DNA from: Quercus robur
Taxonomy: Eukaryota > Streptophyta > Magnoliopsida > Fagales > Fagaceae
Assembly (NCBI RefSeq): GCF_932294415.1
Contig: NC_065542.1
Coordinates: forward strand, 53,502,406-53,566,405
Reading direction: 5' to 3'
Length of the DNA: 64,000 nucleotides
Below, one piece after another: positions 7,018-52,144 of the stretch (within the stretch, counting starts at the first letter, position 1; each line of letters opens with the position of its first letter). Below the pieces are notes generated by a model that did no database searches, had not been told where the DNA came from, and was given only the letters and a program-made list of their open reading frames with translations. Both the position numbers and the translations under genes were made by a program.

Positions 7018-7412
7018 TACAAAAAATTGAGTTATATAACATTGAGTTATATATTTTGTAATTCACATCGAATTACAAAAAATTCGATGTGAATAAAAAA
7101 ACAAAGAAAATATATAATTAATAAAATTTAAAATACTAATCTAATAAAAAGAATTATATAGAATGATATAACATAACAAAGAAAGACATTTTTTTTAATC
7201 TTGTAGTGCTCGCCTACGAGGCTACAGCTGCAAAATCCTTGACAATGAGACACAAGCTTCACTTTATAATTATACGTCTTTTAGTTTGGCTAGGTCTCTC
7301 TCCATTCCTTCCCCCACGTGATTTGTCAATCACCTTAAAAAACAAAAATCATTCTATTTAAGAATAAAGAAAAAATAATCAGCTTATTAGTATGTTTAGT
7401 AATAAACAATTT

Positions 7413-12523: not shown

Positions 12524-12997
12524 TGAAGATGACAAAATACTGGGCCTGACGGGCTTACCTTAATGGGCCTGACGGACTGGGTCTCTTGGGCCTACGTAAA
12601 GATGGTCCCAGCTTTGAAGGCCCATCGAAAGGGCCCATGATCCGAAACGTCCATAGTTCAGAAAAACCCTAAGATCCGGAAATGGGGATCCTTGCTCACC
12701 ACGCTTAGAAGAATTGGGAGTAGAGTCCCACATTGAAAAGATATGGAAACCAAAAAGGAAAAATCAACCCTTTATCACTATAAAAGGCCTAATACCCACA
12801 GAAATCGAGGTACGCTTTAACAGACCCTCTCTAATGCTCTAAGTAAAACAGAACAATTCTAACTCGACCGTCAGAGAACCTTTGGCCGGCACCACACCGG
12901 TGTTCTCTGAAGGACGTCCGTCGGTTATTCTTGTCGTGCAGGTTCGATTCGAGTCGCGAGTACGGTGTGACCCATTGGTGACAATTCGACGTCATCA
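12524..12997 (+). repeat. 5' LTR of element 2
   Basis: 474 bp, starting TGAAGATGACAAAATACTGG and ending ACGTCATCA. Paired with 22176-22649. Confidence 0.96.
12779..12787 (+). promoter_or_regulatory. LTR TATA box of element 2
   Basis: TATAAAAGG about 255 bp into the 5' LTR. It is the expected core promoter for the genomic RNA, and the same motif is present in the 3' LTR. Confidence 0.7.
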
Positions 12998-13017: not shown

Positions 13018-13041
13018 GCATTTCCTAGATAAAGGAGTTAC

Positions 13042-16000
13042 ATGGTACTCACGCGCTCGATGGCAACCACAAATGACGTCCAAGAAGAAGCCCCTACGAC
13101 TGCCCTCGAGAGACAGGTCAAGACACTAGCCGCAGCCGTGGAGCGCCTCACCAAACAAAACCACGACCTGATAGAACAGCTGAATCAAAAGAGTGCGGCG
13201 GTGAATAGCCAAGGAGAAGATCAAGAAGGGAACAGTGAGGAAGGGAGAAATAATGACGGACCACAGGAGAGTAACGCCCCGAGCAAACAAGTGCGACGGG
13301 ACGCTAGCATCCCTTCAGTGACGGATACAGCTCCACAACCCCTCATCGCAGAGATGCAGGCGATGAAGGAACAGATGGAAGTACTGATGAACGCTCTCAA
13401 GGGGCGAGTGTCCAGCGATCTTGACGACCTTGTCAACTGGACTGACTCGCCATTTACGGCGTCCGTCAATTCCTTCCCCCTGCCGAGTAAGTTCCGCATG
13501 CCGAGTATGGACAGTTATGACGGAATCAAGGACCCTCTCGATCACCTAGAGACCTTCAAGACCCTGATGCACCTTCAGGGAGTGGCGGACGCAATTATGT
13601 GTAGGGCATTCCCTACAACCCTGAAGGGCGCAGCAAGGATTTGGTTCAGCCGGCTAACACCAAACTCAATCGGCACCTTCAAGGAGCTGAGCGCTCAGTT
13701 CACTACGCACTTCATCGGAGGGCATCGGTACAAGAAATCAACAGCTTGTTTGATGAATATCAAGCAGAGAGAGGAGGAGACGCTACGGGCCTACATATCA
13801 CGCTTCAATAAAGAAGCGCTATCGATCGACGAAGCCGACGACAAGATATTGGTGGCAGCGTTCACGAACGGGCTGAAGGGGGGTAAGTTTTTGTTCTCCC
13901 TATACAAAAACGACCCAAAGACCATGTCAGAGGTGCTTTACAGGGCCACCAAGTACATGAACGCTGAAGACGCACTGTTAGCCCGAGAAGACAGACCCAA
14001 GAAAAGGGACAGACAAGAGGACCCTCGACAGGACCAGGGGCGGAAGAGAGGACGGATGGGAGATCGAAGGGAGGAGAGACACCCAAAACCAATGGGCGGA
14101 AGGTTCACAAGTTTCACTCCGTTGACCGCCCCGATAGACCAAGTCCTAATGCAGATTAAGGACGAAGGATCCCTGACGTTTCCGGGAAAACTGAAGAGTG
14201 ATCCCAACAAAAGGTCCAGAGACAAATATTGCTGCTTCCACCGTGACCATGGTCACGACACGGCCGACTGCTATGATTTGAAGCAACAAATCGAAACCCT
14301 TATCCGACAAGGGAAATTGAAGAAGTTCGTCAGTAAGGAGACAGCGGATCAACCCCCACAAGAACAACACCCCCGCCGAGAGAACGAGCGACCAAGGCCC
14401 CCATTGGGGGATATAAGGATGATAATTGGAGGAACAGGTGCGGCCGGATCGTCAAAAAAGGCTCGCAAAACATATCTTCGGATGGTACAGAATGTTCAAT
14501 TGGCAGGCACAGTGCCGAAGATGGCAAGAAGGGAAGGCCCTATTATTGGGTTCTCGGAAGAGGATGCGAGACGCCTACACCATCCACACGACGATGCCCT
14601 CGTCGTCACCTTGCGGGCAGGCGACTACAACATCCACCGAGTGTTGGTCGACAACGGTAGTTCGGCCGACATCTTGTATTATCCGGCGTTCCAACAAATG
14701 AGGATTGATAGGGAGCTGCTGATACCGACAAACGCCCCACTCGTTGGTTTCGGAGGGAGTAGGATATTCCCTTTGGGCGCAGTCACGTTATCGGTGACAG
14801 TAGGAGATTACCCTCAACAAATCACCAAGGACGTAACATTCTTAGTGGTCGATTGCTCGTCAGCCTACAATGCTATTATTGGACGACCAACGCTCAACTC
14901 CTGGAAGGCGGCAACATCAACTTACCACCTGATGATCAAGTTCCCAACGGAGTATGGGGTAGGAGAGCTACGCAGAAGTCAAATTGCCGCACGAGAATGC
15001 TACGTAGCTATGATGGAGGTGGAAGACCAGATCCAGGCCTTGAACATAGAAGAACACCGAACGACGGCAGAACCTACAGAAAAGCTAGAGGAAATAACTC
15101 TCGACAGTTCCAATCCAGACCGAACCACCAGGATCGGAACGCTTGCCAAACCCGCAATCCGTCAAGAGCTCGTAGCTTTCCTGAGAAGCAATAAGGATGT
15201 GTTCGCCTGGAGCCATGACGATATGCCAGGAATCGATCCCTCGGTCATGGTACATAAGTTGAATGTGTTGCCCTCGTTTCCACCCGTCCGACAGAAGAAG
15301 AGAGTATTCGCCCCGGAACGAGACCAAGCAATCGCGGAAGAGGTCCGCAAACTCCAAGAGGCAAGCTTCATTAGGGAGGTCTACTACCCCAATTGGCTAG
15401 CGAATGTGGTAATGGTGAAGAAAACGAGCGGCAAATGGCGGATGTGCGTGGACTTCACAGATCTTAACAAAGCATGCCCCAAAGATAGCTATCCCCTTCC
15501 AAGGGTCGACATCCTAGTCGACTCGACGGCTCAACACCAGTTGCTAAGTTTCATGGATGCTTTCTCGGGTTATAACCAGATCCGCATGCACGAGGACGAT
15601 CAGGAGAAGACTTCGTTTGTAACCAGTCAAGGACTCTTCTGTTACAGAGTAATGCCATTCGGCCTGAAGAATGCAGGGGCAACATACCAGAGACTAATGA
15701 ACAAGATGTTCGCACAGCAAATCGGGAGGAATGTCCAAGTCTATGTCGACGACATGCTGGTGAAGAGCCGGAAGGAGGAAGACCACTTGGAAGATCTCAA
15801 GGAAACATTCGGCACACTTCGATCCTACAACATGAAACTCAATCCGGGAAAGTGCGCATTCGGTGTAACGGCGGGCAAATTCCTAGGATTCATGGTATCT
15901 CAAAGGGGGATTGAAGCTAACCCGGACAAAATCCGAGCCATAATGGAGATGGCCCCCCCGAGAAACGTGAAGGAAGTACAGAGCCTTAACGGCAAGGTAG

Positions 16001-18273
16001 CGGCACTGAATAGATTCGTGTCGAGAGCGACGGACAAGTGTTTACCATTCTTTCGAACATTGAAAAAGTCTTTCAAGTGGACGGACGAGTGTCAGCGAGC
16101 CTTCGAGGAGTTAAAAACCTATCTATCTTCACCACCTCTGCTGAGCCCCTCACAACCAGGTGAAGAACTCTTCCTCTATTTGGCTGTCTCCACGGCGGCC
16201 GTCAGCGCGGCCTTAATCAGAGAGGACGACAGGGCACAGAAGCCCGTGTACTACGCCAGCCGGGCGCTCCGCGGTGCCGAGGAAAGATACCAACCTATGG
16301 AGAAACTCGCTTTTGCGTTGGTCACGGCGGCTCACAAGCTCAAACCCTACTTTCAAGCCCATACCGTGAACGTGATGACCGACAAGCCCTTGCGAAGGGC
16401 ACTGAGTAATCCTGAAGCCGCGGGTCGACTGACGCTGTGGGCAATAGAATTAAGTGAGTTTGACATCAAGTACCGTCCACGTGTGGCCATCAAAGGACAA
16501 GCTGTAGCCGACTTCATAGCTGAGTTTACGCATGACGCGGACAAGGGGGCAGAAGAACCCCCCCAGTGGAACGTCTACACCGACGGATCATCCAACAAGC
16601 GAGTTGGAGGAGCCGGCATAGTATTGCTGTCACCTGAAGGAGACAAGATTGAATGTATGGTCCGTCTCGACTTCCCCATTACCAACAATGAAGCAGAATA
16701 CGAAGCGGTAGCAGCAGGACTCGACCTAGCTAAAGCCGCCGGAGCTGAAAGTGTGGCCGTGCATTGCGACTCTCAAGTCGTCACCAATCAAGTAAACGGA
16801 GATTATGAATGCAAAGGGGAAAGGTTGAAGAGATATCTTGATCAAGTGAGGGCGAGAGTCGACGGGCTAAAAGCAACGTTTGTCCAGATCCCCAGGGGAG
16901 ACAATGAGCTCGCTGATCGGCTAGCCAAAGCCGCTTCAGCAAAACATATGATAACACCGGGTAATGTACTTCCCTTTGTTCAAATCTTTCCGCTAATAGA
17001 CCCAGACAACATGCAGGAGATACGCTCCGAAAGAAACTGGACTACGCCGATAGCTTCATACTTAAAGGACGGGATATTGCCTGAAGAGAAGGAGGCAGCG
17101 AGAAAGCTCAAAGTCCGAGCGGCAAGGTTCGTCTTGATAAAAGACATTCTTTACAAGAGAGGTTTCTCCCGTCCTTACCAAAGATGCCTCGGGGTTGAAG
17201 AGGCAGACTACGTGATGAGGGAAGTACACGAAGGAATATGCGGGAACCATTCTGGATCGCGGTCGTTGGTGCACAAACTGTTACGAGCTGGATACTACTG
17301 GCCGACCATGCAAAAGGATGCTGAGTCCTATGTTAAAAGATGCGACAAATGCCAGAGGTTCAGCAATTTTATCGGACAGCCAGCTGAAGAGCTAACCCCC
17401 ATAACGGCTCCATGGCCGTTCGCTCAGTGGGGACTGGACATCATGGGACCTTTCCCAACGGCGATAAGGCAGCTAAAGTTCTTGGTAGTGGGCATTGACT
17501 ACTTCACGAAATGGGTAGAAGCGGAAGCCTTGGCCACCATTACAGAAAAGAACATTAGAAGTTTTGTCTGGCGGAACATAGTATGTAGGTTTGGTATTCC
17601 TAGAGTCCTTGTCTCAGATAACGGGAGGCAGTTCGATAACGGCCCCTTCCGTGATTTCTGCTCACAGCTAGGAATAAAAAACCACTACTCATCCCCCGCC
17701 CATCCTCAGGCTAACGGTCAGGTTGAGGTCACAAACCGATCCCTGCTAAAGATTATCAAGACTCGGCTCGAGGGGGCAAAGGGCATATGGCCAGAAGAAC
17801 TGCCAAGCATACTGTGGGCATATAGGACAACGGCGAGGACTCCGACAGGAGAGACACCGTTTCGACTGACATACGAGAGCGAGGCAGTCATCCCAGCGGA
17901 AGTTGGGCTCACAAGCTACAGGGTTCACAACCACGACGAGGGAAGGAATGACGAATCCATGAGGCTACAGCTGGACCTTATAGATGAGGTCAGGTCGGCA
18001 GCAGAACAGAGGATCGCTAGATACCAGGATCGGATGTCCAGACATTTCAACTCCCGGGTCCGACAAAGAAGCTTCCAAGTAGGAGACCTCGTACTCAGGA
18101 GGGTCATGGGTACAACAAGAGACCCTACACAGGGAAAACTCGGCCCCAACTATGAAGGACCCTACAGAGTTACGTCGTGGAAAAGGAAAGGGACATACCA
18201 CCTGGAGACAATAGACGGAGAAAAGCTACCACATCCGTGGAATGCCGAGCACTTGAGGAAATACTACCAGTGA
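13042..18273 (+). CDS. Gag-Pol polyprotein of element 2
   Basis: An uninterrupted 1,743-residue frame starting at ATG 44 bases after the 5' LTR. Gag: coiled N-terminus, then the gag core (FPTTLKGAARIWFSR, ~residue 190-285) and a knuckle of the form CxFHxxHGHxTxDC (~396-410). Aspartic protease: VLVDNGSSADILYYPAF (~533). Reverse transcriptase with active site YVDDMLVKS (~900). Connection RNase H (LFLYLAVSTAAVSAALIRED, ~1045). A second RNase H of archaeal type (YTDGSS ~1177, NNEAEYEA, HCDSQ, ADRLAKAAS), which marks the Tat lineage. Integrase with an HHCC finger (EVHEGICGNHSG...CDKCQ, ~1394) and D-D-E core (GLDIMGPF, SDNGRQF, HPQANGQVEV), ending HPWNAEHLRKYYQ. No chromodomain. gag and pol are fused without a frameshift, so maturation must be proteolytic. 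Confidence 0.96.
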   Translation: MVLTRSMATTNDVQEEAPTTALERQVKTLAAAVERLTKQNHDLIEQLNQKSAAVNSQGEDQEGNSEEGRNNDGPQESNAPSKQVRRDASIPSVTDTAPQPLIAEMQAMKEQMEVLMNALKGRVSSDLDDLVNWTDSPFTASVNSFPLPSKFRMPSMDSYDGIKDPLDHLETFKTLMHLQGVADAIMCRAFPTTLKGAARIWFSRLTPNSIGTFKELSAQFTTHFIGGHRYKKSTACLMNIKQREEETLRAYISRFNKEALSIDEADDKILVAAFTNGLKGGKFLFSLYKNDPKTMSEVLYRATKYMNAEDALLAREDRPKKRDRQEDPRQDQGRKRGRMGDRREERHPKPMGGRFTSFTPLTAPIDQVLMQIKDEGSLTFPGKLKSDPNKRSRDKYCCFHRDHGHDTADCYDLKQQIETLIRQGKLKKFVSKETADQPPQEQHPRRENERPRPPLGDIRMIIGGTGAAGSSKKARKTYLRMVQNVQLAGTVPKMARREGPIIGFSEEDARRLHHPHDDALVVTLRAGDYNIHRVLVDNGSSADILYYPAFQQMRIDRELLIPTNAPLVGFGGSRIFPLGAVTLSVTVGDYPQQITKDVTFLVVDCSSAYNAIIGRPTLNSWKAATSTYHLMIKFPTEYGVGELRRSQIAARECYVAMMEVEDQIQALNIEEHRTTAEPTEKLEEITLDSSNPDRTTRIGTLAKPAIRQELVAFLRSNKDVFAWSHDDMPGIDPSVMVHKLNVLPSFPPVRQKKRVFAPERDQAIAEEVRKLQEASFIREVYYPNWLANVVMVKKTSGKWRMCVDFTDLNKACPKDSYPLPRVDILVDSTAQHQLLSFMDAFSGYNQIRMHEDDQEKTSFVTSQGLFCYRVMPFGLKNAGATYQRLMNKMFAQQIGRNVQVYVDDMLVKSRKEEDHLEDLKETFGTLRSYNMKLNPGKCAFGVTAGKFLGFMVSQRGIEANPDKIRAIMEMAPPRNVKEVQSLNGKVAALNRFVSRATDKCLPFFRTLKKSFKWTDECQRAFEELKTYLSSPPLLSPSQPGEELFLYLAVSTAAVSAALIREDDRAQKPVYYASRALRGAEERYQPMEKLAFALVTAAHKLKPYFQAHTVNVMTDKPLRRALSNPEAAGRLTLWAIELSEFDIKYRPRVAIKGQAVADFIAEFTHDADKGAEEPPQWNVYTDGSSNKRVGGAGIVLLSPEGDKIECMVRLDFPITNNEAEYEAVAAGLDLAKAAGAESVAVHCDSQVVTNQVNGDYECKGERLKRYLDQVRARVDGLKATFVQIPRGDNELADRLAKAASAKHMITPGNVLPFVQIFPLIDPDNMQEIRSERNWTTPIASYLKDGILPEEKEAARKLKVRAARFVLIKDILYKRGFSRPYQRCLGVEEADYVMREVHEGICGNHSGSRSLVHKLLRAGYYWPTMQKDAESYVKRCDKCQRFSNFIGQPAEELTPITAPWPFAQWGLDIMGPFPTAIRQLKFLVVGIDYFTKWVEAEALATITEKNIRSFVWRNIVCRFGIPRVLVSDNGRQFDNGPFRDFCSQLGIKNHYSSPAHPQANGQVEVTNRSLLKIIKTRLEGAKGIWPEELPSILWAYRTTARTPTGETPFRLTYESEAVIPAEVGLTSYRVHNHDEGRNDESMRLQLDLIDEVRSAAEQRIARYQDRMSRHFNSRVRQRSFQVGDLVLRRVMGTTRDPTQGKLGPNYEGPYRVTSWKRKGTYHLETIDGEKLPHPWNAEHLRKYYQ

Positions 18274-18495: not shown

Positions 18496-18980
18496 AAGTC
18501 CACAAGATGGACGGATTATCCTACAGGGACGATCCCCCTAAGTCCACAAGGTGGACGGATCATCCTACAGGGATGATAACCATAAGTCCACAAGATGGAC
18601 GGACACAATATGAAGTCCACAAGATGGACGGATCGTCCTACAGGGACGGTCACCCTAAGTCCACCAAGTGGACGGATCACTAAGGTGATGAAACGTGAGT
18701 CCACAAAGTGGACGGATCACTAAGGTGGTGAAACATAAGTCCACAAAGTGGACGGATCACTAAGGTGGTGAAACATAAGTCTACAAAGTGGACGGATCAC
18801 TAAGGTGATAAAACATAAGTCCACAAAGTGGACGGATCACTAAGGTGATGAAACATAGGTCCACAAAGTGGACGGATCACTAAGATGTTGAAATACATAG
18901 GTCCACAAAGTGGACGGATCACTAAGGTGATGTAATTAGTCCACAAAGTGGACAGATCACTAAGATGTTGAAATACATTA
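18496..18980 (+). repeat. Tandem ~40-bp repeat with internal dyad in element 2
   Basis: About 12 units of 27-45 bp, each starting with a dyad of the form TCCAC-AA(A/G)-GTGGACGG. The last seven follow GTCCACAAAGTGGACGGATC ACTAAGGTGATGAAACATA (split here). The first four carry a CCTACAGGGACGGT-like spacer instead. Degenerate copies trail to ~19,300. The array lies between the pol stop and the antisense gene stop. Confidence 0.85.
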
Positions 18981-19466
18981 AATAAAGTCCTTGAGATGGA
19001 CGGACTGTCCTACATGAAATAAAGTCCCAAGGTGGACGGATATAATAGATGGACGTTTTCGCAAAGTGGACGGAAACTAGCTACGTTAAAATTTTCTACA
19101 AGTCCATTAAATACGCGATATATTTAAAAGTGATGAACAACGCCACAAAGTGGACGGTCCGCGTAATAAACCTCTCAAAACAGACGGAAAAGGAAAATCC
19201 TCACCGATGTAAATGCTCAATCAACACAAGATAACAAGTCCGCAATGTGGACGGATCATCACAGATTAACAAATATTCTCACAAAAATACTCCCTCAAGA
19301 AGGTAGACGGAGCTTTAAACAGAGTACCAAACAATTATAAAAAGCATGTGAACTTTAAGCCAAAAGCCCCAAAGGCAAATGTTTAATACAATTAAAAAGG
19401 ACGGATTGTCTTAAAAAATGAATAAAAAAGAAGGACGGATTGTTCACAAAATAAAGTACATAGGCA

Positions 19467-21608
19467 TCAATCTTTCTTTTCTTCAGCAACTGGGACATCC
19501 TTCGACGGGGCGGACTCTCCGTCTCCTTGAGCAGCACCGTCGCCAAAAAGGTCCTCCGTATTTTCGGAGGCGACGGGGAGGGCAGAAGTCTGGGCTTGGT
19601 CCTCAAGTTTGACCATTGTCAAGTCCAGCTCTGGATAAGCCTTCTTGACTTGACGGAGGGAATCATCGAAGCCTTGGAGGAAGGAGTCCGACAGCTCGCC
19701 CAAACAGGACTCCGAGCATCGGTACTCCTCGACGGCTGCCACTTTAGCCTGACGGAGCTCTTCTTTGAGTGGTTTGATCTCAGCGTCTTTATTCTCTATG
19801 ACCGTCAGCGAAGTGGCCGTCTTCTCCTCCAGCTCCTTCCTCGCCTGCTCAGAAAGCTCCAGCTTCTTCTCCATCTTGGACCTCCATCTCTGAAGTTGTC
19901 CGAGCTCTTCCTCCGTCTGCTGCGCCTTCGCGCGCACCCGGTCCAAGGTACTCTCACGGTTGAGACACCGGTCAAGTAGTCCCTTCATCATGACCAAGGA
20001 CTGCAAATAGAAAAGAGACCGTCACATAATGTAAGTAACAAGAAGAAAGAAAAATAAAAAACTTATTTGACAAACATAACCAACCTGAGCGACGGCGAAG
20101 AGGCCCGTCTCCCCCATGGCCTCCGTCGAATGGTTTCCCAGGTCTTCATAGTCTTCTGCCGTGATGATGGACGACAGCTTCTCCAATGCATACTTGGAGT
20201 CATCACGGAGAAGGGAAGGAGGTCTCTCTTGCTTACCGTCTGGGACCGTCATCAATCCCTTACCCTTCCCCTGCTTCGCTGGGGTGACGGCCTTGTTACC
20301 CTCAGCCATTAAGCCAACCACAGGTTCAAGAGAGACCTTTGGTTGCTTAAAGGGACGGTCGGATTTTGTCGTCAGTTTCCTTTTAGGGACTGAAGCTGAC
20401 GCCTTAGGAACCTCCTCGCCGGATTCCCTCTTCTTGACGGCTTGGGACTTGATCAAAGCTCTCCTCTTTGCGTCATCCATCTCTGCAAATAATGACGGAT
20501 GAAATTAAAACAAAATAAAGCATAGTAAATGACAAAGTAAAGTTGACGGGCTTACGTTTGTGAACTCGCTCGTCGTATCTTATCGCTTCTTGGGTGGGCT
20601 CAGGACCGTCGCAGTACCAATGAATGGTCCTCGGGTTCACCAACTTAGCCCAAGTCCTTTCCTCCGGCGTAGTTTTCTTGCAAACCTTTTCAAGGAAGCT
20701 AAACTCCTCGAGGCTGACTTGTGGGCGCCGTCTACCTGCAAAGAAAGATGATCAAGATATACATATATAGCTGGACGGATATGAAAAGCAGTACAAAATT
20801 TAGATGGATGCATACGTGTCTGATTTATAACTGCCCAAGTTGTGTCGACGGGCATGTACTCCGTCTCCCCTGGATGGTTCATCCATCTGTCACCCTCCAG
20901 GAAGAAATACCGACTCTTCCAGTCTCTATTTGAGTCTGGGGTCTCAAAGATCACCTTCAACAAGGGGCTCCGACTGGCAAAACTGTACATCCCCCTTGAT
21001 CCAGAAATCTCGTCTGGACGGTAACAGTGAAGAAATTCACGGACCGTCAATTTCCTTTCCCCGTTTGACATTGCACCGTAAAGAATCTCCATGGCTATGA
21101 AGACCCTCCAGGCGTTAGGGGATATCTGGGTGACGGACAACCCCAGATACTGTAAGAGTTCCCTATGAAGTGTAGAAAGCGGGAATCGAAGTCCAGCCTT
21201 CAATGCCTGCTCGTACACTCCGACACCGTCTACCCCTTCATAGTAACACTTCTCCGACACATGTGGTAGATGGATGGAAACATAGTCTGGGATTTGGAAG
21301 TTGGTCCTGAAGGTGCTGAAGTGTTTCTCCCTAATGACGGACGTGAACCTATGCACCGTCCACTCTGGCAACATGATGAACTGCCTTAGTCCATCAGCGC
21401 CTACAACGGACTCCAGTGCTTGATCCCCGTCGTCATCGGAACCCTCTATTTCGACAATCTCCACATCCTCATTTGTTGAGGATGAAGAAGAGGCAGACGG
21501 ACTCCTATCTTCGCCGGGGCTCTCTTGGTCTTTATGACCGGACGGGTATACATCCTCGTATTCCATCCCATCACGAACCACCGACTGGTTACTTGACGCA
21601 CTAGACAT
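19467..21608 (-). CDS. Antisense spliced gene of element 2 (four exons)
   Basis: Exons on the minus strand: 21608-20816, 20735-20556, 20482-20085, 20000-19467. Introns (80, 73 and 84 bp) all start GT and end TGCAG or CTCAG-type AG; phases are 1, 1, 0, and the join is one continuous frame of 634 residues. Parts: a Ser/acidic N-terminus; a region resembling the plant 'putative gypsy type transposon' family (Transposase_28), with YEQALKAGLRFPLSTLHREL and QISPNAWRVFIAMEIL; a second exon with VCKKTTPEERTWAKLVNPRT; a basic third exon (KRRALIKSQAVKKR); and a fourth exon with a long heptad coiled coil (~residues 465-560) and acidic tail. It is convergent with gag-pol. Antisense ORFs of this type are known in Tat elements, with function unknown. 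The splice model is inferred from sequence; no transcript was seen. Confidence 0.82.
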
Positions 21609-21868
21609 TTCCTACAATTGACAATGAAACCTAAGACCGACGGGTTTGAATGTGTTGACGGGTACGGAAAGCCTAACAACAATGCATGGACGGAAATGTA
21701 ACTTGACTATGGTAAATTAGAAGCACTTACCAAACTTATCAGAGGATAGGTGACGGTTGGTGTAATCAACAGATGGTCGTCCACGACGGGTTACTCTGAC
21801 AAGGTTGACGGCTTCGCTCTGACAAATGTTTTCTGAGTGAAAAGTGAAAAATGAAAGAGTGAGGCGCC

Positions 21869-21880
21869 TTATATATATAG
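21869..21880 (-). promoter_or_regulatory. TATA box for the antisense gene of element 2
   Basis: CTATATATATAA on the minus strand, about 260 bp upstream of the antisense ATG (21608) and inside the internal region, not the LTR. The equivalent site in element 3 is at 53409-53416. Confidence 0.55.
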
Positions 21881-22163
21881 GAGGTGCACGGAAGACGAAG
21901 CGACGCTTCGATCCTATACAACGACCATTCAGAGAGTGACACGTGGCATGCTTAATAAATGCTGACAACCTGTCAGTACGTACCAACAGACTCATACCCG
22001 TCATGACATCGTCAACTTGATGAATCTCACTATGACGGGTTTATCCATCTGGAACCGTCGTCCTATCTGGGCTGAATCCGTTATAAAATTGACCGTCATA
22101 CCCATACGTAAGGACCGTCACCCCACTGATCCTTTGACCCAAAAGGTGACGGACCATTGGGGT

Positions 22164-22171
22164 GAAGGGGG
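22164..22171 (+). promoter_or_regulatory. Polypurine tract of element 2
   Basis: GAAGGGGG followed by CAAC and then the 3' LTR TG. Element 3 has GAGGGGG-CAAC at the same place. Confidence 0.7.
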
Positions 22172-22175
22172 CAAC

Positions 22176-22649
22176 TGAAGATGACAAAATACTGGGCCTG
22201 ACGGGCTTACCTTAATGGGCCTGACGGACTGGGTCTCTTAGGCCTACGTAAAGATGGTCCCAGCTTTGAAGGCCCATCGAAAGGGCCCATGATCCGAAAC
22301 GTCCATAGTTCAGAAAAACCCTAAGATCCGGAAATGGGGATCCTTGCTCACCACGCTTAGAAGAATTGGGAGTAGAGTCCCACATTGAAAAGATATGGAA
22401 ACCAAAAAGGAAAAGTCAACCCTTTATCACTATAAAAGGCCTAATACCCACAGAAATCGAGGTACGCTTTAACAAACCCTCTCTAATGCTCTAAGTAAAA
22501 CAGAACAATTCTAACTCGACCGTCGGAGAACCTTTGGCCGGCACCACACCGGTGTTCTTTGAAGGACGTCCGTCGGTTGTTCTTGTCGTGCAGGTTCGAT
22601 TCGAGTCGCGAGTACGGTGTGACCCATTGGTGACAATTCGACGTCATCA
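22176..22649 (+). repeat. 3' LTR of element 2
   Basis: 474 bp, paired with 12524-12997. Six transitions separate them and there are no indels. Confidence 0.96.
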
Positions 22650-22654: not shown

Positions 22655-23418
22655 TGTTTTGGTATGGGAACTGTTCAAAGTCAATTCTAAGAGACAAAGT
22701 CAATTCGTGCCACCAAACAAGAAATTGGTGTTCTGCATTTTAATTACGACAAAAGATTATGGAACATGATTGATTACTTTGGGCCTTTTGGCCTTTATTA
22801 CAAGGTTGATTACCTGCAATAATTAACACCAGGGCCTAGGGCCTCAAATCCAAGGTAATAAATAATTATTTTTTTATTTTATTTACAAACATGTGAATTA
22901 TATTTTTTTTCTTCTACTTTTAAAAAAATATTCATACTAGAAAATACTCATTTATTATCCTTACAAATTTTCATATTTAAATACTTATTTATTATCTTCT
23001 TAAAGAGCCACTAATTACATTCATTGTCCCATTAATTTGTAAGTTTTTTATAAAAAAAAATTACAAGAAAAAAAATGTGTAATGATTTTAATATTTTCTC
23101 CAAACAATTATTAATAAATAGAAATCCAACACAATCACTATTAAGTGATTTTTTTAATTTATAAATTCAATAGTCGTGGATGGAGAGATTTGAATTGTAA
23201 ATGTCTCTGTTGGAAATGGGTATCAACTAGTTGAGTTATTAAGCGTTTGGCCACCATTAAGTGAATTAGTCATATTAAAAGCTAAAAGGTTAGAAAAAAA
23301 ATTATAATATAAAACATTAACTCAATAATATTGAGTGATATTTCTCTGCTCATTTAAAATTATCGTCTTATACCTCAAACTATATTAAGTCAGCCATGAT
23401 TAACATGAAATTGGAGTT
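22655..23418. other. Intergenic DNA right of element 2
   Basis: AT-rich with no gene. Holds a SINE-like minus-strand fragment at 23180-23262. Confidence 0.5.
23180..23262 (-). mobile_element. SINE-like fragment (second family)
   Basis: On the minus strand it reads AATAACTCAACTAGTTGATA (A-box-like) and, about 40 bases on, ACAATTCAAATCTCTCC (B-box-like). This resembles a tRNA-derived head. The ends are unclear and there is no target duplication. Confidence 0.35.
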
Positions 23419-24077
23419 TCAAGAAATTATCTGCTTGTGCAAACCCCTCATAGATATTTCAATTCTCCTATAAAATTCTCTCTTTTTCCTCTCAAATGAT
23501 GTTGATAATAAACATGACTTTAATGTTGTGAGCTGAGTTGTTTGCTTCTGATCACCTAACATGCAGAACAATCAAGATTCTAGAGTCTCAACATTCTTTT
23601 TCAATTTTGTTGTTTTTAGGCCGTGAATTGTGTTTGCAAATTGGAGGATGAAGTCTTTCTTTTGGAGTTTGAATGGTTTGTGTTTGCTTCAGTCTTGTTT
23701 AATTCATGCAAATCAAATGGTGGAAATGATAAGGGCGCCACATTTGAAAAGTCAGGAAAACTCAAAGACTACACTAAGAGCAACAAAAGTGTCACTAAGC
23801 CATAAACTAGATTCTTGACTCTAGTTCTAGGCTCTCTCTCTCTCCCGTTTTTAAAGGCGGGGTTTGAATTTGGTGCAATAGTTATCCTTTAGGGCAAGCA
23901 AATGTCGATCCGTACTTGACCCGTTTCCTGTCCATAGTTATCAAAAATTGTATAGTGCTTTGAATAATTAATTTATGGGTAAAATATCATTTTCATCCCT
24001 AAACTTTCACAAAAGTTCCTTGTTCGTCCCTAAACTTTCAAAAAAAAAAAAATTGGTCCCTAAACTTTGCAATGTTA
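23419..24077. repeat. Tandem duplication upstream of the receptor gene, copy 1
   Basis: A 659-bp unit repeated at 24078-~24710, with only scattered substitutions and small indels. Both copies contain the same 60-codon frame beginning MNCVCKLEDEVFLLEFEW (23623 and 24282), which I do not recognise and do not call a gene. Each ends with a CCCTAAACTTT-type segment common in dispersed plant repeats. Confidence 0.85.
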
Positions 24078-24710
24078 TCAAGAAATTATCTGCTTGTGCA
24101 GACCCCTCATAGATATTTCAATTCTCCTATAAAATTCTCTCTTTTTCCCCTCAGATGATGTTGTTGATAATAAACATGACTTTAATGTTGTGAGCTGAGT
24201 TGTTTGCTTCTCACCTAACATGCAGAACAATCAAGATTCTAGAGTCTCAACATTCTTTTTCGATTTTGTTGTTTTTAGGCCGTGAATTGTGTTTGCAAAT
24301 TGGAGGATGAAGTCTTTCTTTTGGAGTTTGAATGGTTTGTGTTTGCTTCAGTCTTGTTTAATTCATGCAAATCAAATGGTGGAAATGATAAGGGCGCCAC
24401 ATTTGAAAAGTCAGGAAAACTCAAAGTCTACACTAAGAACAACAAAAGTGTCACTAAGCCATAAACTAGATTCTTGACTCTAGTTCTAGTCTCTCTCTCT
24501 CTCCCGTTTTTAAAGGCGGGGTTTGGATTTGGTGCAATAGTTATCCTTTAGGGCAAGCAAATGTCGATCCGTACTTGACCCGTTTCTTGTCCATAGTTAT
24601 CAAAAATTGTATAGTGCATTGAATAATTAATTTATGGGTAAAATATCATTTTCATCCCTAAACTTTCATCAAAGTTCATTGATCGTCCCTAAACTTTGCA
24701 ATGTTTTACT
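24078..24710. repeat. Tandem duplication upstream of the receptor gene, copy 2
   Basis: Second copy of the unit at 23419-24077, offset by 659 bp. It ends about 270 bp before the receptor-like protein start, so it lies in the gene's upstream region. Confidence 0.85.
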
Positions 24711-24890: not shown

Positions 24891-24977
24891 GATTTGAGAT
24901 AACAGCTCAAGAATCCCCCACAAAACAGACAACAGACTAGTAAGATCCTTTGAGGTCCAAGTATCTTTACAAGCAGA

Positions 24978-27533
24978 ATGATTAAAACCAACATCTACAT
25001 CTCCAATTCTCATCTCCTCTGCCAGGTTCTGTTCTTGTGTGTGCTGGGACCTGCCTTCCTAGGAATTATTAAACCCACTTCATGCACCAGCAACCTCACT
25101 TTTAGATGTTCACAGATGGAGAAAAATGCTCTTCTTAACTTCAAAGAAAGTCTCACAGATCCATCAAATCGCCTCTCTTCATGGGTTGGTGAAGATTGCT
25201 GTAAATGGATAGGTGCTGGATGTGACAACACTACATCACATGTTGTCAAGCTTGATCTCTACAACCCACTTCCGAGAGAAACTTACAATTGCAAGTCGTG
25301 CTTGGGGGGTAAGATAAGTCCTTCTTTACTCAATTTAACGCATTTGAGTTACCTGGACCTAAGCCTGAACAATTTTGAAGGTCAGTTACCAGCTAGTCTG
25401 GGACATCTGACCAACTTGAGCACATTGGTTTTATCTGTAAACAATATTACTGGTGAAATACCAAGCTCATTTGCCAACCTTTGCAACTTGCAAACTTTTA
25501 TACTGATGGCCAATGGCATAAGTGGGGAGATAACTCAGTTTGTAGATGGTTTATCTCAATGTTCCAACAACAGCCTTGAATTGCTGGATTTGAGTGGTAA
25601 TAAATTGCTTGGGGGCAACTTGCCTTACTCACTGGGGGCACTCAAGAACTTGAAAAACTTAGATCTTTCAAGTTGTTCCTTTTGGGGTTCAATTCCAGAT
25701 TCTATTGGGAACATGTCTTCCTTACAATTACTTGCCCTTACCGCAAATAAAATGAACGGAAGCATTCCAAGCAGCATGGGGAAACTATCAACGCTGGAAA
25801 AGTTGGCTCTTGGTGGAGGGAATTCTTGGGAAGGTGTCTTAACTGAAGCTCATTTCCAAAATCTTACGCGATTATCATTTATAGAGTTGGGTATCTCCAC
25901 TAGATGGTCATTGGTTTTAAATGTCAAACATGAATGGGTTCCTCCTTTCAGCTTGATATACATTGTATTCAATCGCATGAAGATTGGTCCCAAATTTCCA
26001 GCATGGCTTCAAACTCAAAATGAGCTCAACTATCTTAGCCTCGTTGATGTTGGCATTTCTGATACCCTTCCGCAAGGATTTTGGAATTCCAGCTCAAGTC
26101 TTAGCTATTTGAGCCTTTCCCAGAACCAAATTCAAGGACAGGTACCATACTATCAATCTTATTCTATTACATATTACTTGGATTTGAGATTCAACAATTT
26201 CGTGGGGCAGGTCCCACTTTTTCATAGTAAATTTATGAAAGTTTTATACCTTGAAGAAAATATGTTTTCTGGAGTTGTCCCTGAAAACATAGGTGAACTA
26301 TTGCCCAATTTACTTCACTTGGTCCTCTCTTCAAATTTCATTACCGGTAGAATTCCACCTTCTATTGGAATACTTAAGAGCTTGGAAATTCTTGCTTTGA
26401 GAAATAATAGCTTGTCTGGGGAACTCCCTCCTCATTGGGATGATATGCAGTCATTATACTTTTTGGACATATCAGACAACAATATATCCGGTAAACTTCC
26501 AAGTTCAATGCGATTTTTGAGTTCACTACAGTGGTTATCATTGGGACAAAATCACCTTGAGGGGGAGCTCCCTTCTTTCTTGAGAGAATGCACAAAATTG
26601 GTAAGCCTTGATCTTGGAGGGAACAAATTCTTTGGAAACATACCAGTATGGATAGGAGAAAGCTTATCAAATCTATCAAGGTTAAGCCTAAGATCCAACT
26701 TGTTTGATGAAGTCATACCTCAACAATTATGTCTTCTTTCAAGCCTTCACATCCTTGATCTTGCACATAATGATTTGTCAGGAGGAATCCCTCAATGTTT
26801 AGGGAACTTGAGTAAAAATGGTTCAAGTAAATTTGTTAATTTCTTGGAACAAATTGCAATATTTTATAAAGGAAGAGACTATCTATATAGAAACACAATT
26901 TATCTTGTCCATTCTTTAGACCTTTCAGGAAATAATCTATCAGGGGAAATACCTGATAGTATAACAGACCTTTTAAAACTCAATATCCTAAATCTCTCAA
27001 TGAATCACCTGACAGGAAAAATTCCCAAAAACATAGGGAACTTAAAAAGTTTGGAATCATTTGATCTCTCTAAAAACCAACTTTTTGGTCCCATTCCTGA
27101 AAGCCTGTCTTCTTTGACTTTCTTGAGTCACTTGAATTTGTCATTCAACAACTTGTCTGGGAAAATTCCATCTGGGAATCAACTTCAAACCTTAACTGAT
27201 CCTTCCATCTATCAGGGCAACCCTTTGCTTTGTGGACTTCCGCTTTCCAACAAGTGTCTAGGGGATGAAACTGATCCTAGAAAAACTCCAAATGGCAGCG
27301 GCAATGGAGAAGATAACAATGATGGAATGGAATTTGGGTCGCTATCATTCTACATTAGCATGGTAGCTGGCTATATTGTTGGATTTTGGGGAGTTTGTGG
27401 CACACTAATTGTCAAAACATCATGGAGACAAGCTTACTTTCGAGGCTTTGATAATTTGAAAGATAGGATTGTTCTTTTCATTATGGTTAAAGTTGCTCCT
27501 TTGATAAGGAAGATTAAGTTCGAGAGAAATTAA
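24978..27533 (+). CDS. LRR receptor-like protein, EIX/Cf type
   Basis: An intronless 851-residue frame starting at ATG. N-terminal hydrophobic signal peptide (about residues 10-34). LRRNT_2 cap ([20 protein letters not shown] ... [12 protein letters not shown], ~44-83). Then about two dozen extracellular LRRs of the plant LxxLxLxxNxLxGxIP type, broken by a short island (~[18 protein letters not shown], ~615-640). LRR C-cap ([13 protein letters not shown]), acidic juxtamembrane stretch, one membrane helix (~787-811, [20 protein letters not shown]) and a ~39-residue basic tail without kinase. Members of this family sit in the plasma membrane, sense pathogen or developmental ligands, and signal through SOBIR1/BAK1-type partner kinases. 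EIX2-like proteins are usually near 1,000 residues, so this one probably has fewer repeats. The frame is intact and functional status is plausible. Confidence 0.93.
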
Positions 27534-30751: not shown

Positions 30752-33700
30752 TTTTTTTTTTTTTTTTTTTTTTTGAGAATGAATGCTACGAACTTTTATT
30801 AAGAAAACCCGGCCAAATCAGCCTGATATGAATGAACAACTTCCGATGGAACATCTTCCATCCATACTACACAATTTGGGATAGTAACAGCTAACTTCGC
30901 CAAATCATGCGCTACTAGGTTGCCCTCTCTCTTTGTATGAGAGTAAGACAATAAAGAAAAAGCTGGAATAAAACTGTAAGCATCCTGAATCAAAAGACCA
31001 AATGGAGCAAGTCCAACATCCTTGGTTTCTAATGCCTTAATCACCATCAAAGAATCTCCCTCAAGGATAGCTGCTGAGATGCCCACCTCCCTAGCAAACT
31101 CAAGAGCCCTAGTGGCTGCCCTGGCCTCAATTTCAATCGGCTGTAGGAGCTGGGGGATTTTTTCTGTCATGGCTGCTAGCACCAAGCCTTCTTTGTTACG
31201 GATAATAGCTCCTACCCCTGAACAATTTTCTTCGGCAAAAACGGCTCCATCAAAATTAATTTTGTAGACGTCCAATGGAGGTGGCTTCCAACGTGTCCTC
31301 ATGCGAGGTCTACTAGGTGAAGATGGCGGTAAGATAGCTTGGTATTCTGAATATCTCTCAGCTGCAAATTGAGAAAGAAGGTTCAGGGAGCAACATGGTT
31401 GTTGAGAACGCATCTGGTTCCTTTGAGTCCAGATGGACCACACCGTGAAAGCAAAGAGAGCTGGCTTCCGTTGATGCTCAAATACCCAAGCCATCAATTC
31501 ACTGAAGCTGGAAAAAGAAGTCTGGTTCCGAAAACTCCATGCGGTATCCTTATCCCACACACAATCCAGGTTTTTGCAAGTCCATACTGCATGAATCATG
31601 TCTTCCGCTTCACCTCGACAACGGTCACAGGTCTGATCCGTGATAATAGTTCTACGCAGAAGATTGCTCTTTGATGGAAGTGAGTCACGGCAAGCTCTCC
31701 AAACTAGATTCTTCACCTTATTCGGACATGCCAGAGCCCAGATTTTCTTCCATAGGCCTTTTTCATGATCAGGCCGAGCCTCCCTGTGAGAACCATCCTC
31801 TGCTTCCTTTAAGAATTGGTACCCCAGCTTGCAATTGAACTTACCATCCTGTGCTAGTGGCCAAAACAGTGAGTCTTCAGTAGCTACCCGGGCCAATGGA
31901 ATGTTCTTAATTTCTTCTGCTTCTTCCGGTGCAAACAATCCATCCACCATATCAGCATTCCATGTGCGTGTCCCTTCATCTATCAAACAATCCACAGTAG
32001 CTTCCTCCATAGATTCCACCATCGGAGATGCGACCAAAGTTGGGTGTTTTCGTGGCAGCCAATAATGTTGCCAAATTTTGATAGATTTCCCATTGCCTAC
32101 CCTCCAACAAGCTCCTTCTAGGACCACGTCACGACCCCTCAAGATGCTTTTCCAAGCATACGATCCGGAAGAGGATTCTTTTGCATCAATTAGAGAGCCA
32201 TGAGGAAAAAACTTCGCCTTAAACACCTTGTAAAAGAGAGAGTCCTTATTGTGGATAAGACGCCACGCTTGCTTGGCTAGGAGAGCATCATTGAAGTGAG
32301 CCAAGTCACGGAAGCCCATTCCTCCTACCATCTTAGATTTTGTTAATTCACTCCAACGAAGCCAATGAATTTTCCTACGATCCCCCCTTTGGCCCCACCA
32401 ATATCTTCTTATCATAGCCTCAATATCCTCACAAAGCCCAATGGGAAGTTTGAAGCAACCCATGGCATAGGAAGGAATAGCTTGAATTACAGATTTAATG
32501 AGTACCTCTCTACCGGCTTGTGATAACAACTTGCTCTCCCATCCTTGAAGCTTCCTCCATACCCTTTCTTTTATATAATCAAAACTCGCCTTTTTTCCCC
32601 TACCCACAAAAGATGGCAGCCCCAAATACTTCTCGTAGGATTTAACTTCTTGAAGTTGGAGAAGATTTTTGATATTTTCTTTTGCTTCTTCCGATGTAGA
32701 CTTGCTAAAGAAAATTGCAGTCTTGTCTTTGTTGATCTTTTGCCCCGACAACGACTCATATTCAGCAAGCAACTTCAAAATATTATTACAATCCTCATAG
32801 GTTGCCCTGCAAAAAAGCAAGCTATCGTCTGCAAAAAACAAATGGGTTAATTTCGGGCCTCTCTTGCATAAGGAAAAACCTTTGAGATCACCAATTCTCG
32901 CCGAGTGTTTAATGAGAGCATGTAGACCTTCATAACAGAGGAGGAAAAGGAACGGGGAGAGTGGATCCCCTTGCCTTATACCTCGTTTGGGATGAATCAT
33001 TCCCATGGGTTCACCATTAACCATAATGGAGTATGTCACCGTTCTAACACAACTCATAACAAGAGCAATCCACCTAGAGCAAAATCCCATTCTCTCCATA
33101 AGTTTCTCCAAATAAACCCATTCAACCCTATCATAAGCCTTACTCATATCTAGTTTTAAGGCCATAAAACCATGTCTACCCGAGCTATGATGCTTCATAT
33201 GATGGAGGGTTTCAAAGGCAACCATAATATTATCTGAGATAAGGCGATCTTTAGCAAAAGCAGATTGGTGTTCAGTGATTAGGGATGGAAGGAATTTCTT
33301 TAGTCTATTAGCTAGGACCTTGGAATATATTTTGTAGAGAACATTGCATAGACTAATAGGTCGAAACTCAGTAACAAGTTCAGGGTTATCAACTTTTGGC
33401 ACAAGAGTAATAAGAGTATGGTTTATAGGGTCGGGTAAAGTACCTGTATTTAACCAAGAGAGGATGGCAGTGGTTACATCAAGCTTCATAAGCTCCCAAA
33501 AATGCTGATAGAAGAGTGGAGGCATTCCATCCGGACCCGGAGCCTTTAAAGGTGCCATTTGATTTAAAGCTTCCCACACTTCCAATTCTGAAAAATCACG
33601 CACCAAGTCTGCATTCATCTCTTCCGTCACCAAGCAAGGGATTTTCTCAAGAGCCTCCTCAGTAAGGCTCGGCTGTGAAGAGGAGAAAAGCTCTTCGTAG

Positions 33701-34776
33701 TAGGTCGTCAACTCCAAACCCATTTCCTCCCTCTCGGTTAACCACTCACCTCTAGCATTTTTAATCCCCCTGATTACATTCTTCCTGAACCTCTTTGTTG
33801 CCTTGCTATGGAAAAAAGCTGTATTGCTATCGCCTTTACTAAGCCATAAGACTCGTGACCTTTGGCACCACATTCTAGCTTCTCTATCTAGAAGGATATT
33901 GATTTCAGCCTTGAGACCCCTAACCCGAGAGTTGTCCCCACTGACTATTGCTTCATTTTCCGCCACCACAAGCAAATTCTTCTTCTCTGCTAATTCCCTT
34001 CTCACATGACCAAAGTTATGCTTACTCCACCGAGTTAATTCCTGTTCACATTGAGCCACCTTTTTCAAGATAGCTAGGCCTGGATTCGGATCACAATTAT
34101 TATTCCAAGTTTCTTCAATAGTTTCACCACAAGAGGGCTCAGACAACCACATTTCCTCAAACCTGAAGCACTTCTTCCTACTCGGCTCTTCCAATCCCAA
34201 TAAATTCACCCAAAGTGCAGAATGATCCGATGACATAGATTGAAGGTGATGGACTCTAGTTCCCGGAAATTTGTGAAACCAGGAATTAGTAGCCAGGCAC
34301 CTATCTAGTCTTAGTCTAACAGAGTGTCCATCATCAAAATGTCTTGCCCATGTAAATTTTGAACCTACAAAACCCAAATCCATGAAGCCACACTCATCAA
34401 TCACATCTCTAAATAACTGCATTTGATTGTGCTCCCTCCTAGGTCCACCCAACTTCTCATCATGCCGAATAATTTCATTAAAATCCCCTGCACAGAGCCA
34501 AGGTCTATTCTGCCTTGAATTTAAAGACCTCAATTTGTTCCATGCTTCAATTCTCCTTGAGGTCTCAGGTTCCCCATAAAAGCCAGTAAATCTCCACTCA
34601 TTCTCGGAATTTCCATTGATAATAGTGTCAATGTAATACCTATGTGAATCTACTACAGTAAGGTTCACAGAATTCTTCCAAAATAACACTAAGCCACCAC
34701 CTCTGTTAACCCTCGACACCACCCACTTCTGATCAAAGTTTATTTTGCTCAACGTACGGTCTAGCCTTGCATCATC
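30752..34776 (-). mobile_element. LINE (non-LTR retrotransposon), 5'-truncated
   Basis: Ends with a 23-nt poly(A) (plus-strand T at 30752-30774) directly after ATTCTC. The 3' UTR is only about 24 bp and contains TAATAAAAG. Homology at the 5' end begins inside the endonuclease domain (~34776), so ORF1 and the endonuclease N-terminus are absent. No convincing target duplication was found. Confidence 0.9.
30799..34776 (-). CDS. LINE ORF2: endonuclease (partial), reverse transcriptase, zf-RVT, RNase H
   Basis: Open for over 1,317 codons with no stop or frameshift. There is no ATG at the 5' end because the copy is truncated; the frame is open from 34776. Order: the C-terminal two-thirds of an APE-type endonuclease (WLCAGDFNEII, SDHSALWVNL); RT with GPDGMPPLFYQHFW, DMSKAYDRVEW, RQGDPLSPFLF and catalytic FADDSLLF (~residue 640); a zf-RVT segment (WRACRDSLPSKSNL, CDRCRGEAED); and a plant-type RNase H (INFDGAV, EIEARAATRALE, LEGDSL, AHDLAKLA). 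It would act as an mRNP-bound target-primed reverse transcriptase. The intact frame suggests a fairly recent insertion. Without the endonuclease N-terminus it is unlikely to be autonomous. Confidence 0.92.
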   Translation of the reverse strand, partial: DDARLDRTLSKINFDQKWVVSRVNRGGGLVLFWKNSVNLTVVDSHRYYIDTIINGNSENEWRFTGFYGEPETSRRIEAWNKLRSLNSRQNRPWLCAGDFNEIIRHDEKLGGPRREHNQMQLFRDVIDECGFMDLGFVGSKFTWARHFDDGHSVRLRLDRCLATNSWFHKFPGTRVHHLQSMSSDHSALWVNLLGLEEPSRKKCFRFEEMWLSEPSCGETIEETWNNNCDPNPGLAILKKVAQCEQELTRWSKHNFGHVRRELAEKKNLLVVAENEAIVSGDNSRVRGLKAEINILLDREARMWCQRSRVLWLSKGDSNTAFFHSKATKRFRKNVIRGIKNARGEWLTEREEMGLELTTYYEELFSSSQPSLTEEALEKIPCLVTEEMNADLVRDFSELEVWEALNQMAPLKAPGPDGMPPLFYQHFWELMKLDVTTAILSWLNTGTLPDPINHTLITLVPKVDNPELVTEFRPISLCNVLYKIYSKVLANRLKKFLPSLITEHQSAFAKDRLISDNIMVAFETLHHMKHHSSGRHGFMALKLDMSKAYDRVEWVYLEKLMERMGFCSRWIALVMSCVRTVTYSIMVNGEPMGMIHPKRGIRQGDPLSPFLFLLCYEGLHALIKHSARIGDLKGFSLCKRGPKLTHLFFADDSLLFCRATYEDCNNILKLLAEYESLSGQKINKDKTAIFFSKSTSEEAKENIKNLLQLQEVKSYEKYLGLPSFVGRGKKASFDYIKERVWRKLQGWESKLLSQAGREVLIKSVIQAIPSYAMGCFKLPIGLCEDIEAMIRRYWWGQRGDRRKIHWLRWSELTKSKMVGGMGFRDLAHFNDALLAKQAWRLIHNKDSLFYKVFKAKFFPHGSLIDAKESSSGSYAWKSILRGRDVVLEGACWRVGNGKSIKIWQHYWLPRKHPTLVASPMVESMEEATVDCLIDEGTRTWNADMVDGLFAPEEAEEIKNIPLARVATEDSLFWPLAQDGKFNCKLGYQFLKEAEDGSHREARPDHEKGLWKKIWALACPNKVKNLVWRACRDSLPSKSNLLRRTIITDQTCDRCRGEAEDMIHAVWTCKNLDCVWDKDTAWSFRNQTSFSSFSELMAWVFEHQRKPALFAFTVWSIWTQRNQMRSQQPCCSLNLLSQFAAERYSEYQAILPPSSPSRPRMRTRWKPPPLDVYKINFDGAVFAEENCSGVGAIIRNKEGLVLAAMTEKIPQLLQPIEIEARAATRALEFAREVGISAAILEGDSLMVIKALETKDVGLAPFGLLIQDAYSFIPAFSLLSYSHTKREGNLVAHDLAKLAVTIPNCVVWMEDVPSEVVHSYQADLAGFS

Positions 34777-44891: not shown

Positions 44892-44893
44892 GT

Positions 44894-44911
44894 TGGGGCT
44901 GTCTGTGAGAA
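44894..44911 (+). promoter_or_regulatory. Primer-binding site region of element 3
   Basis: TGGGGCTGTCTGTGAGAA, colinear with TGGCGCCGTCTGTGGGGA of element 2 but with substitutions, so the site is probably degenerate. Confidence 0.45.

Positions 44912-52092: not shown

Positions 52093-52144
<52 letters not shown>

Follow-up and report, generated by a model that had tools for sequence, protein, structure and literature searches.

A predicted four-exon antisense gene and dispersed GACG-core words in Tat-type retrotransposons of Quercus robur

A 64,000-nt stretch of the Quercus robur genome (contig NC_065542.1, positions 53,502,406 to 53,566,405 of the forward strand; hereafter the window, from a genome of 785.7 Mb in 42 contigs) carries long terminal repeat (LTR) retrotransposons that we call elements 1, 2 and 3. 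Between pol and the 3′ LTR of element 2, antisense to gag-pol, lie four exons that, judging from their sequence, almost certainly make up one real multi-exon gene, and a diverged counterpart with the same intron phases occupies the same position in element 3. Exon 1 shows a match, below the family cutoff in both elements, to the TRP28 domain (Transposase_28, PF04195). The zones around these genes are also rich in short words with a GACG core, which the spliced protein may bind.

The sequence-only reading had joined separate minus-strand frames of element 2 into one 635-codon frame through GT-AG introns of 80, 73 and 84 bp in phases 1, 1 and 0, and we reproduced this model in full. The gene of element 2, in its own 5′ to 3′ order, and that of element 3 are laid out as follows.

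20816 to 21608, minus strand: exon 1 of the element 2 antisense gene, holding the Transposase_28 (PF04195) match
20736 to 20815, minus strand: intron 1 of the element 2 gene (80 nt, phase 1)
20556 to 20735, minus strand: exon 2 of the element 2 gene (180 nt)
20483 to 20555, minus strand: intron 2 of the element 2 gene (73 nt, phase 1)
20085 to 20482, minus strand: exon 3 of the element 2 gene
20001 to 20084, minus strand: intron 3 of the element 2 gene (84 nt, phase 0)
19467 to 20000, minus strand: exon 4 of the element 2 gene, coiled-coil-like by eye and terminating in TGA
51038 to 53251, minus strand: antisense gene of element 3 (exons 53251-52435, 52344-52174, 52089-51629 and 51556-51038)

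The 635 codons of element 2 include the stop and specify 634 aa. The gene of element 3 likewise lies between pol and the 3′ LTR; it encodes 655 aa and has introns of 90, 84 and 72 nt, again in phases 1, 1 and 0 and with the same order of protein regions, as had been read from the sequence. The two proteins are 24% identical in an alignment that covers most of their length (E 2e-47). In a MAFFT alignment judged by eye, the two proteins have introns 2 and 3 at identical columns, with an offset of three columns for intron 1. We also aligned each protein, with splicing, to the DNA of the other element; at this level of identity neither direction recovered the introns, so the comparison of introns between elements 2 and 3 rests on two separate models. 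Intron 2 of element 3 ends, just before its acceptor, in a run of 49 T on the gene strand (52093-52141).

Left unspliced, the best frame contains five stops in element 2 and three in element 3, the terminal stop included. As a test of chance, we determined the longest open reading frame (ORF) obtainable with at most three GT-AG introns in each region and in 30 dinucleotide shuffles per region. The real regions gave 647 codons (element 2) and 758 codons (element 3), and the shuffle maxima were 291 and 280, so that every shuffled spliced ORF was less than half as long as the real one. On the opposite strands, the longest spliced ORFs were 324 and 234 codons, respectively.

We then compared element 2 with 20 further copies (L029 to L048; 91.7 to 99% identity in the longest aligned piece), drawn from 40 scored matches to the last 234 bases of the gene and hence biased toward copies that bear the tail. 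All 20 copies have GT-AG at all three introns, and none has an indel in the 1,905 exon bases. The gene is free of stops in 17 of them, with one stop each in L032, L036 and L041. Summed over the 20 copies, indel events relative to element 2 numbered 40 in the 567-bp upstream zone, 106 in the 487-bp 3′ zone and 22 in the introns, where 20 of the 22 are a single base distinguishing element 2 from all copies. Divergence among copies was 1.4, 1.6 and 6.4% at codon positions 1, 2 and 3 and 6.2% in introns. Across 210 pairs, nonsynonymous divergence (dN) was 0.0148 and synonymous divergence (dS) 0.1154, with a mean dN/dS of 0.13 (0.10, 0.05, 0.17 and 0.22 for exons 1 to 4). By these measures, the spliced frame is under purifying selection at the protein level. 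The dS of exon 4 in these copies was 0.049, versus 0.13 to 0.19 in exons 1 to 3. Ascertainment accounts for part of this low value, because the copies were found by the exon 4 tail, and gene conversion or mosaic copies are also possible.

We looked for more distant relatives to determine how widely the intron architecture recurs. A search with exon 1 of element 3 (142 of 5454 candidates scored) yielded six loci, L049 to L054, and a PF04195 search (150 of 4148 candidates scored) yielded ten, L055 to L064. The latter comprise clade F3 (L057, L059 to L062 and L064), clade F4 (L063, L058 and L056) and L055. Relatives were also sought in viral contigs and other genome contigs, and none was found there. 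Introns were called by spliced protein-to-DNA alignment with the element 3 protein as the query for L049 to L054 and the L063 protein for F3 and F4; this works within clades, adding extra, probably spurious, introns in the variable N terminus of F3 and in decayed loci. A rule-based spliced-ORF search was set aside, because the introns that it called were wrong at many loci, those of elements 2 and 3 among them.

Exon 1 was open in all six relatives of element 3. L049, L053 and L054 have all three introns at element 3 residues 273, 330 and 483 in the same phases, with one additional and probably spurious intron each in L053 and L054. In L052, intron 1 has a GC donor, intron 2 is present and intron 3 is missing; L050 and L051 have intron 3 in the same place, with introns 1 and/or 2 altered. 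These three loci contain four to six stops and look decayed. The sequence-only reading had proposed checking the intron positions in other Tat-lineage elements, and all nine F3 and F4 loci (six of six F3, and three of three F4 including the query L063 itself) have them at the same residues, 282, 342 and 472, in phases 1, 1 and 0. Exon 2 is 180 nt long in all nine, as in element 2, and 171 nt in element 3. The F3 loci share 46 to 50% of aligned residues with the L063 protein and show an extra early intron and one or two stops, probably an artifact of the variable N terminus. L055 has introns 2 and 3 at matching residues and not intron 1. The best local matches of these clades to the element 2 and 3 proteins are about 27 to 35% identical. 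The intron architecture is thus common, at the level of these gene models, to four divergent clades. The same reading had named as counterevidence relatives whose frames run intact through the introns and break when spliced. Intron 3 does read through in frame in L063 and L058 (60 and 66 nt), and splicing leaves the frame unbroken there; the 65-nt intron 3 of L056 contains stops.

Upstream of their start codons, and outside the LTR, both genes have a TATA box and, within the shared string ATGCCACGTG, a G-box.

21866 to 21880, minus strand: TATA box of the element 2 gene, kept in 19 of 20 copies
21937 to 21951, minus strand: G-box CCACGTGTC upstream of the element 2 gene, its core kept in 19 of 20 copies
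21612 to 21730, minus strand: candidate 5′ untranslated region (UTR) intron of the element 2 gene (119 nt; donor GTAAGTG kept by 19 of the 20 copies, acceptor by all 20)
53408 to 53416, minus strand: TATA box belonging to the gene of element 3, 165 bp upstream of its ATG
53464 to 53528, minus strand: pair of G-boxes ahead of the element 3 gene, one starting at 53528 and the other at 53469

TATAAA also lies 154 to 169 bp ahead of the ATG in all six element 3 relatives. A 5′ UTR intron in element 3 itself was considered and found unsupported, the visible GT..AG spanning only about 25 nt. The host presumably transcribes the gene and splices its RNA.

The second property of these elements is their density of GACG-core words. 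Element 2 contains GACGG 97 times (20.7 expected), and element 3 contains GACGA 85 times (13.7 expected) and TGGACGA 33 times (1.0 expected). In the remainder of the window, neither the twelve leading 5-mers nor the twelve leading 6-mers included a GACG word. Two tracts of element 2 matter for what follows.

18980 to 22175, no strand assigned: GACGG/CCGTC-rich zone, with 31 words in exons, 4 in introns, 12 upstream and 9 downstream
18496 to 18973, no strand assigned: tandem repeat between pol and the antisense gene, in 40- to 44-bp units holding TGGACGGAT

GACGG reached 11 to 27 per kb over the gene, introns and flanks of element 2, versus 3.8 per kb in gag-pol, and the pol end of all 20 copies held 2.8 to 3.4 per kb. 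Noncoding DNA was compared with 500 dinucleotide shuffles and coding DNA with 500 shuffles that kept protein and codon usage fixed. In element 2, GACGG occurred 12 times upstream (1.3 expected) and four times in the introns (0.0 expected), and the 3′ zone held nine without the tandem repeat (0.5 expected); no shuffle reached any of these counts. Codon choice in the exons favored the words as well, with 31 GACGG versus 11.5 in element 2 and 20 GACGA versus 8.3 in element 3, and none of the 500 shuffles reached either count. Enrichment was weaker in the LTR of element 2 (4 versus 1.1; 9 of 500 shuffles), and GACGT was raised there likewise (5 versus 0.9); the 5′ LTR of element 3 had seven GACGA versus 1.1 expected. 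The two kinds of shuffle rule out chance or codon usage as the source of the words. Each consensus unit of the tandem repeat contains GGACGG, and the counts made without it rule out the repeat as their sole source; element 3 has no such array, only the T run in intron 2. The long interspersed nuclear element (LINE) and the leucine-rich repeat (LRR) gene of the window showed no such enrichment. GACGG is evenly spread, not clumped, over 18980-22649 (variance/mean 0.73 in 250-bp bins); the words of element 3 are not evenly spread (1.34).

Of the 18 gene zones compared across loci, 17 had a top 6-mer with the GACG core (z 13 to 32). GACG totals were 27 to 83 per gene zone (3.7 to 4.5 kb) versus 3 to 8 in eight control segments of the window (3.8 kb), two of which had a GACG-type top word, each from just two occurrences. 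Four arbitrary 4.5-kb genome stretches had 3, 17, 4 and 7 GACG, the stretch with 17 containing an NB-ARC gene, and none had a GACG-type top word. One of the four, L068 (G000:C40:33000000-33004500), looks like a satellite array, with AGCCTG and CGGGTC strongly overrepresented. Clade F3 has a second enriched word, GATGTAC/GTACATC, with 5 to 11 copies per locus; it is absent from the ten other Tat zones fetched (L049 to L056, L058 and L063) and from element 3 and occurs once in element 2.

Words in the exons fall in all three frames and in both orientations (16 plus and 15 minus in element 2; 12 plus and 8 minus in element 3), which argues that double-stranded DNA is the form recognized. Outside the tandem repeat, element 2 has 37 plus and 23 minus words, and element 3 has 28 plus and 18 minus; from pol to the gene, element 2 has 21 plus and 0 minus words.

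The bases flanking the core differ by clade: the words are GACGG in element 2, TRGACGAG in the element 3 clade, GGACGA in F3 and TGACGA in F4. In the element 2 zone, GACG is followed by G at +1 in 76% of cases; in the element 3 zone, 98% of cases have A or G at −1, 60% have A at +1 and 47% have G at +2. In the pol zone, 18 of 21 element 2 sites lack a word in element 3, as do 28 of 33 in the reverse comparison, suggesting that the sites of elements 2 and 3 were mostly gained separately. Exon 1 of seven element 3-type genes has 19 word columns, of which one is common to all seven, so that word density persists through a turnover of sites. When codon usage was held fixed, GACGA was raised in exon 1 of all six element 3 relatives, at most 1 of 300 shuffles reaching the observed count in four of them.

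Among the element 2 copies, sites were kept more often than shifted positions, both in noncoding DNA (0.793 versus 0.659; 18 of 1294 shifts reach the observed value) and in exons (0.950 versus 0.855; 7 of 1907). A raw-pair comparison looked stronger (0.902 versus 0.696); we preferred the site-level shift test. Elements 1 and 3 share 23 of 47 words (Fisher p 0.001), a figure that ignores codon constraint and carries little weight.

Against PF04195, element 2 scores 23.6 bits and element 3 scores 24.2, both under the cutoff of 26.2. All eight exon 1 proteins match the family (threshold E 5, best 1.8e-6), and F3, F4 and L055 loci, which can be aligned to elements 2 and 3, score above the cutoff. 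DUF1985 and DUF287 gave no match to exon 1 at E ≤5 or to the whole element 2 protein at E ≤1.

Antisense genes of this kind are already known, and their function has been called unknown (2020 review, PMC7264820; Vicient 2025, PMC11963269). Antisense ORFs with TRP28/Transposase_28 include Retand ORF4, RIRE2 and Grande gene23, and TRP28 has been predicted to bind DNA and linked with family-specific tandem repeats (PMC11963269). The 2020 review reports an own promoter for gene23 and calls for a search for antisense and spliced transcripts (PMC7264820). Our genes resemble the TRP28 ORFs of Retand/Tat elements in their position between pol and the 3′ LTR, antisense orientation, probable TRP28 domain, nearby tandem repeats and promoter; they differ in that those are described as open frames, whereas here there are four coding exons and dispersed GACG-core words. 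In a limited search of the open-access literature, we found no report of introns in antisense TRP28 genes or of a dispersed word, and "intron" does not occur as a word in PMC11963269. The intron architecture therefore appears unreported in that literature, within the portions available.

A close functional parallel is the anti-silencing protein VANC21 of VANDAL21. The motif that it binds is dense, specific to the family and located in introns and tandem repeats, and VANC21 causes loss of methylation; VANC6 has a different motif (Hosaka 2017, PMC5735166). Like that system, ours has a gene with introns encoded by the transposable element, a dense and family-specific short motif (rare in the rest of the window and the four genome stretches) and related families that differ in motif. 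Unlike it, the host element is an LTR retrotransposon rather than a Mu-like DNA transposon, the protein has no DUF1985/DUF287 match, and the core contains CpG. A second comparison is the additional 5′ ORF (5′ aORF) of Tekay in sunflower, also an extra retrotransposon ORF with a proposed silencing role; it belongs to a chromovirus, lies at the 5′ end, and is proposed to resemble a double-stranded RNA (dsRNA)-binding protein rather than TRP28 (PMC11728184).

Introns antisense to genomic RNA survive copying via that RNA. The sequence-only reading had reasoned along these lines, in accord with established retrotransposon biology, and the antisense introns described here would be retained by replication because they are opposite in sense to the genomic RNA that is copied. 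A Tat-lineage element with a sense intron in gag-pol shares with ours the lineage, an intron and host splicing (predicted here); by contrast, its intron is lost if the spliced RNA is copied.

Taken as a whole, the best explanation, to which we give an even chance, is that the spliced antisense TRP28 protein binds the GACG words of its own element and so counters silencing or controls transcription. Tat/Retand elements carry, antisense between pol and the 3′ LTR, a predicted host-style RNA polymerase II gene with its own TATA box and G-box, three short coding introns, a probable 5′ UTR intron, a probable TRP28 domain and a charged, coiled-coil-like C-terminal part. Once the host had transcribed and spliced this gene, the protein would enter the nucleus and bind the cognate words of its own element, a step toward which we lean slightly. 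Many dispersed bound sites may then keep the element or the antisense promoter free of silencing, or transcription may be otherwise controlled; that the effect is anti-silencing is a tentative proposal, made by analogy. The flank differences among GACGG, TRGACGAG, GGACGA and TGACGA would reflect co-evolution of protein and site, as in VANC/VANDAL. It is conceivable, if somewhat doubtful, that TRP28 proteins in general are self-targeting anti-silencing or self-activating DNA-binding proteins that arose separately from VANC, with word and protein co-evolving. A trans-acting protein and cis sites on one element would be the simplest joint account.

Several observations weigh against this explanation. 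AlphaFold gave a pLDDT (predicted local distance difference test) of 35 for exon 1 (two sequences), offering no structural support for DNA binding, and a PDB sequence search with the eight exon 1 proteins found no solved relative. VANC21 sites are mainly noncoding (PMC5735166), whereas the words here also occur in coding DNA and, for element 3, in gag-pol. The GACG core is common to all clades, and words of 5 to 8 bases are short for family specificity; GACGG was raised along with GACGA in exon 1 of L049, L059, L062 and L063, pointing to looser specificity in coding DNA. The introns of element 3 are weakly enriched (GACGA 1 versus 0.1; 26 of 500 shuffles), the signal in L055 is weak (z 8), and the LTR sites of element 2 show no extra conservation (0.525 versus 0.587 shifted). 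The word controls consisted of window segments and the four genome stretches.

The strongest competitor, which we consider rather unlikely, is that the protein assists the replication cycle as an accessory factor, for example in nuclear entry of the preintegration complex, and that the words are unrelated to it, being sites of a host factor or a compositional habit of Tat elements. Grande GENE23 is nuclear and has been proposed to have an accessory role (PMC7264820), and a GACG core common to clades would suit a single host factor. However, the flanking bases vary between the sampled clades, and word density in element 2 peaks around the antisense gene and is low in gag-pol and at the pol end of every copy. 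It is improbable that the antisense transcript is itself functional, pairing with genomic RNA in dsRNA regulation with the protein secondary. Such a role has been suggested as possible (PMC7264820), and the transcript would overlap the genomic RNA in its 3′ part, but the indel-free exons and low dN/dS indicate selection on a protein, and an RNA-only role needs no frame. We think it decidedly improbable that the words act in RNA, as packaging or stability signals of the genomic RNA: plus-oriented words are commoner overall, most clearly between pol and the gene of element 2, yet both orientations are frequent in coding exons, and words also lie within the introns of the opposite-strand gene. 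That decayed ORFs have produced the exon-intron model by accident, for which only the failed direct spliced alignment between elements 2 and 3 speaks, can practically be dismissed: it is refuted by the copies and also contradicted by the shuffles, the dN/dS, the element 3 homologue and the recurring introns.

The host elements and their surroundings in the window were annotated as follows.

12524 to 12997, plus strand: 5′ LTR of element 2 (474 bp, 98.7% identity to the 3′ LTR, target-site duplication CATAT)
22176 to 22649, plus strand: 3′ LTR of element 2
13033 to 18273, plus strand: single gag-pol frame of element 2, whose 1746 aa comprise gag, reverse transcriptase (RT), two RNase H domains (the second RVT_3) and integrase
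44394 to 44891, plus strand: 5′ LTR of element 3 (498 bp, 96.8%, target-site duplication AGTCA)
53596 to 54093, plus strand: 3′ LTR of element 3
6827 to 7018, minus strand: decayed antisense-gene remnant in element 1 (last 65 residues, 75% identity to element 3)

Element 2 thus has all of two LTRs, a target-site duplication and a single gag-pol frame. RVT_3 occupies residues 1183-1301 of its gag-pol, between RT_RNaseH and Integrase_H2C2, and we take a second RNase H between RT-RNase H and integrase to be a hallmark of Tat elements. The gag-pol of element 3 (44883-50137) has several in-frame stops, yet its antisense gene is fully open; this is a single copy, and the difference may be chance. 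Element 1, at the left end of the window, and element 3 are related (about 87% in pol); element 1 retains just the tail of the antisense gene. Elsewhere, the window contains a pair of 0.63-kb direct repeats with 96.5% identity and about 32 bp between them (23416-24701), an 859-aa LRR open frame on the plus strand (24954-27533) and a 1325-aa LINE-like open frame on the minus strand (30799-34776).

The intron-exon model supplies the full antisense protein in place of ORF fragments, and it illustrates a way for a retroelement to retain introns, by placing the gene antisense to the RNA that is copied. The family-specific words are a concrete candidate DNA target and a handle on TRP28 function. If the protein does bind them, plant LTR retrotransposons would own a self-targeting factor comparable to VANC, which would bear on how these elements spread despite silencing.

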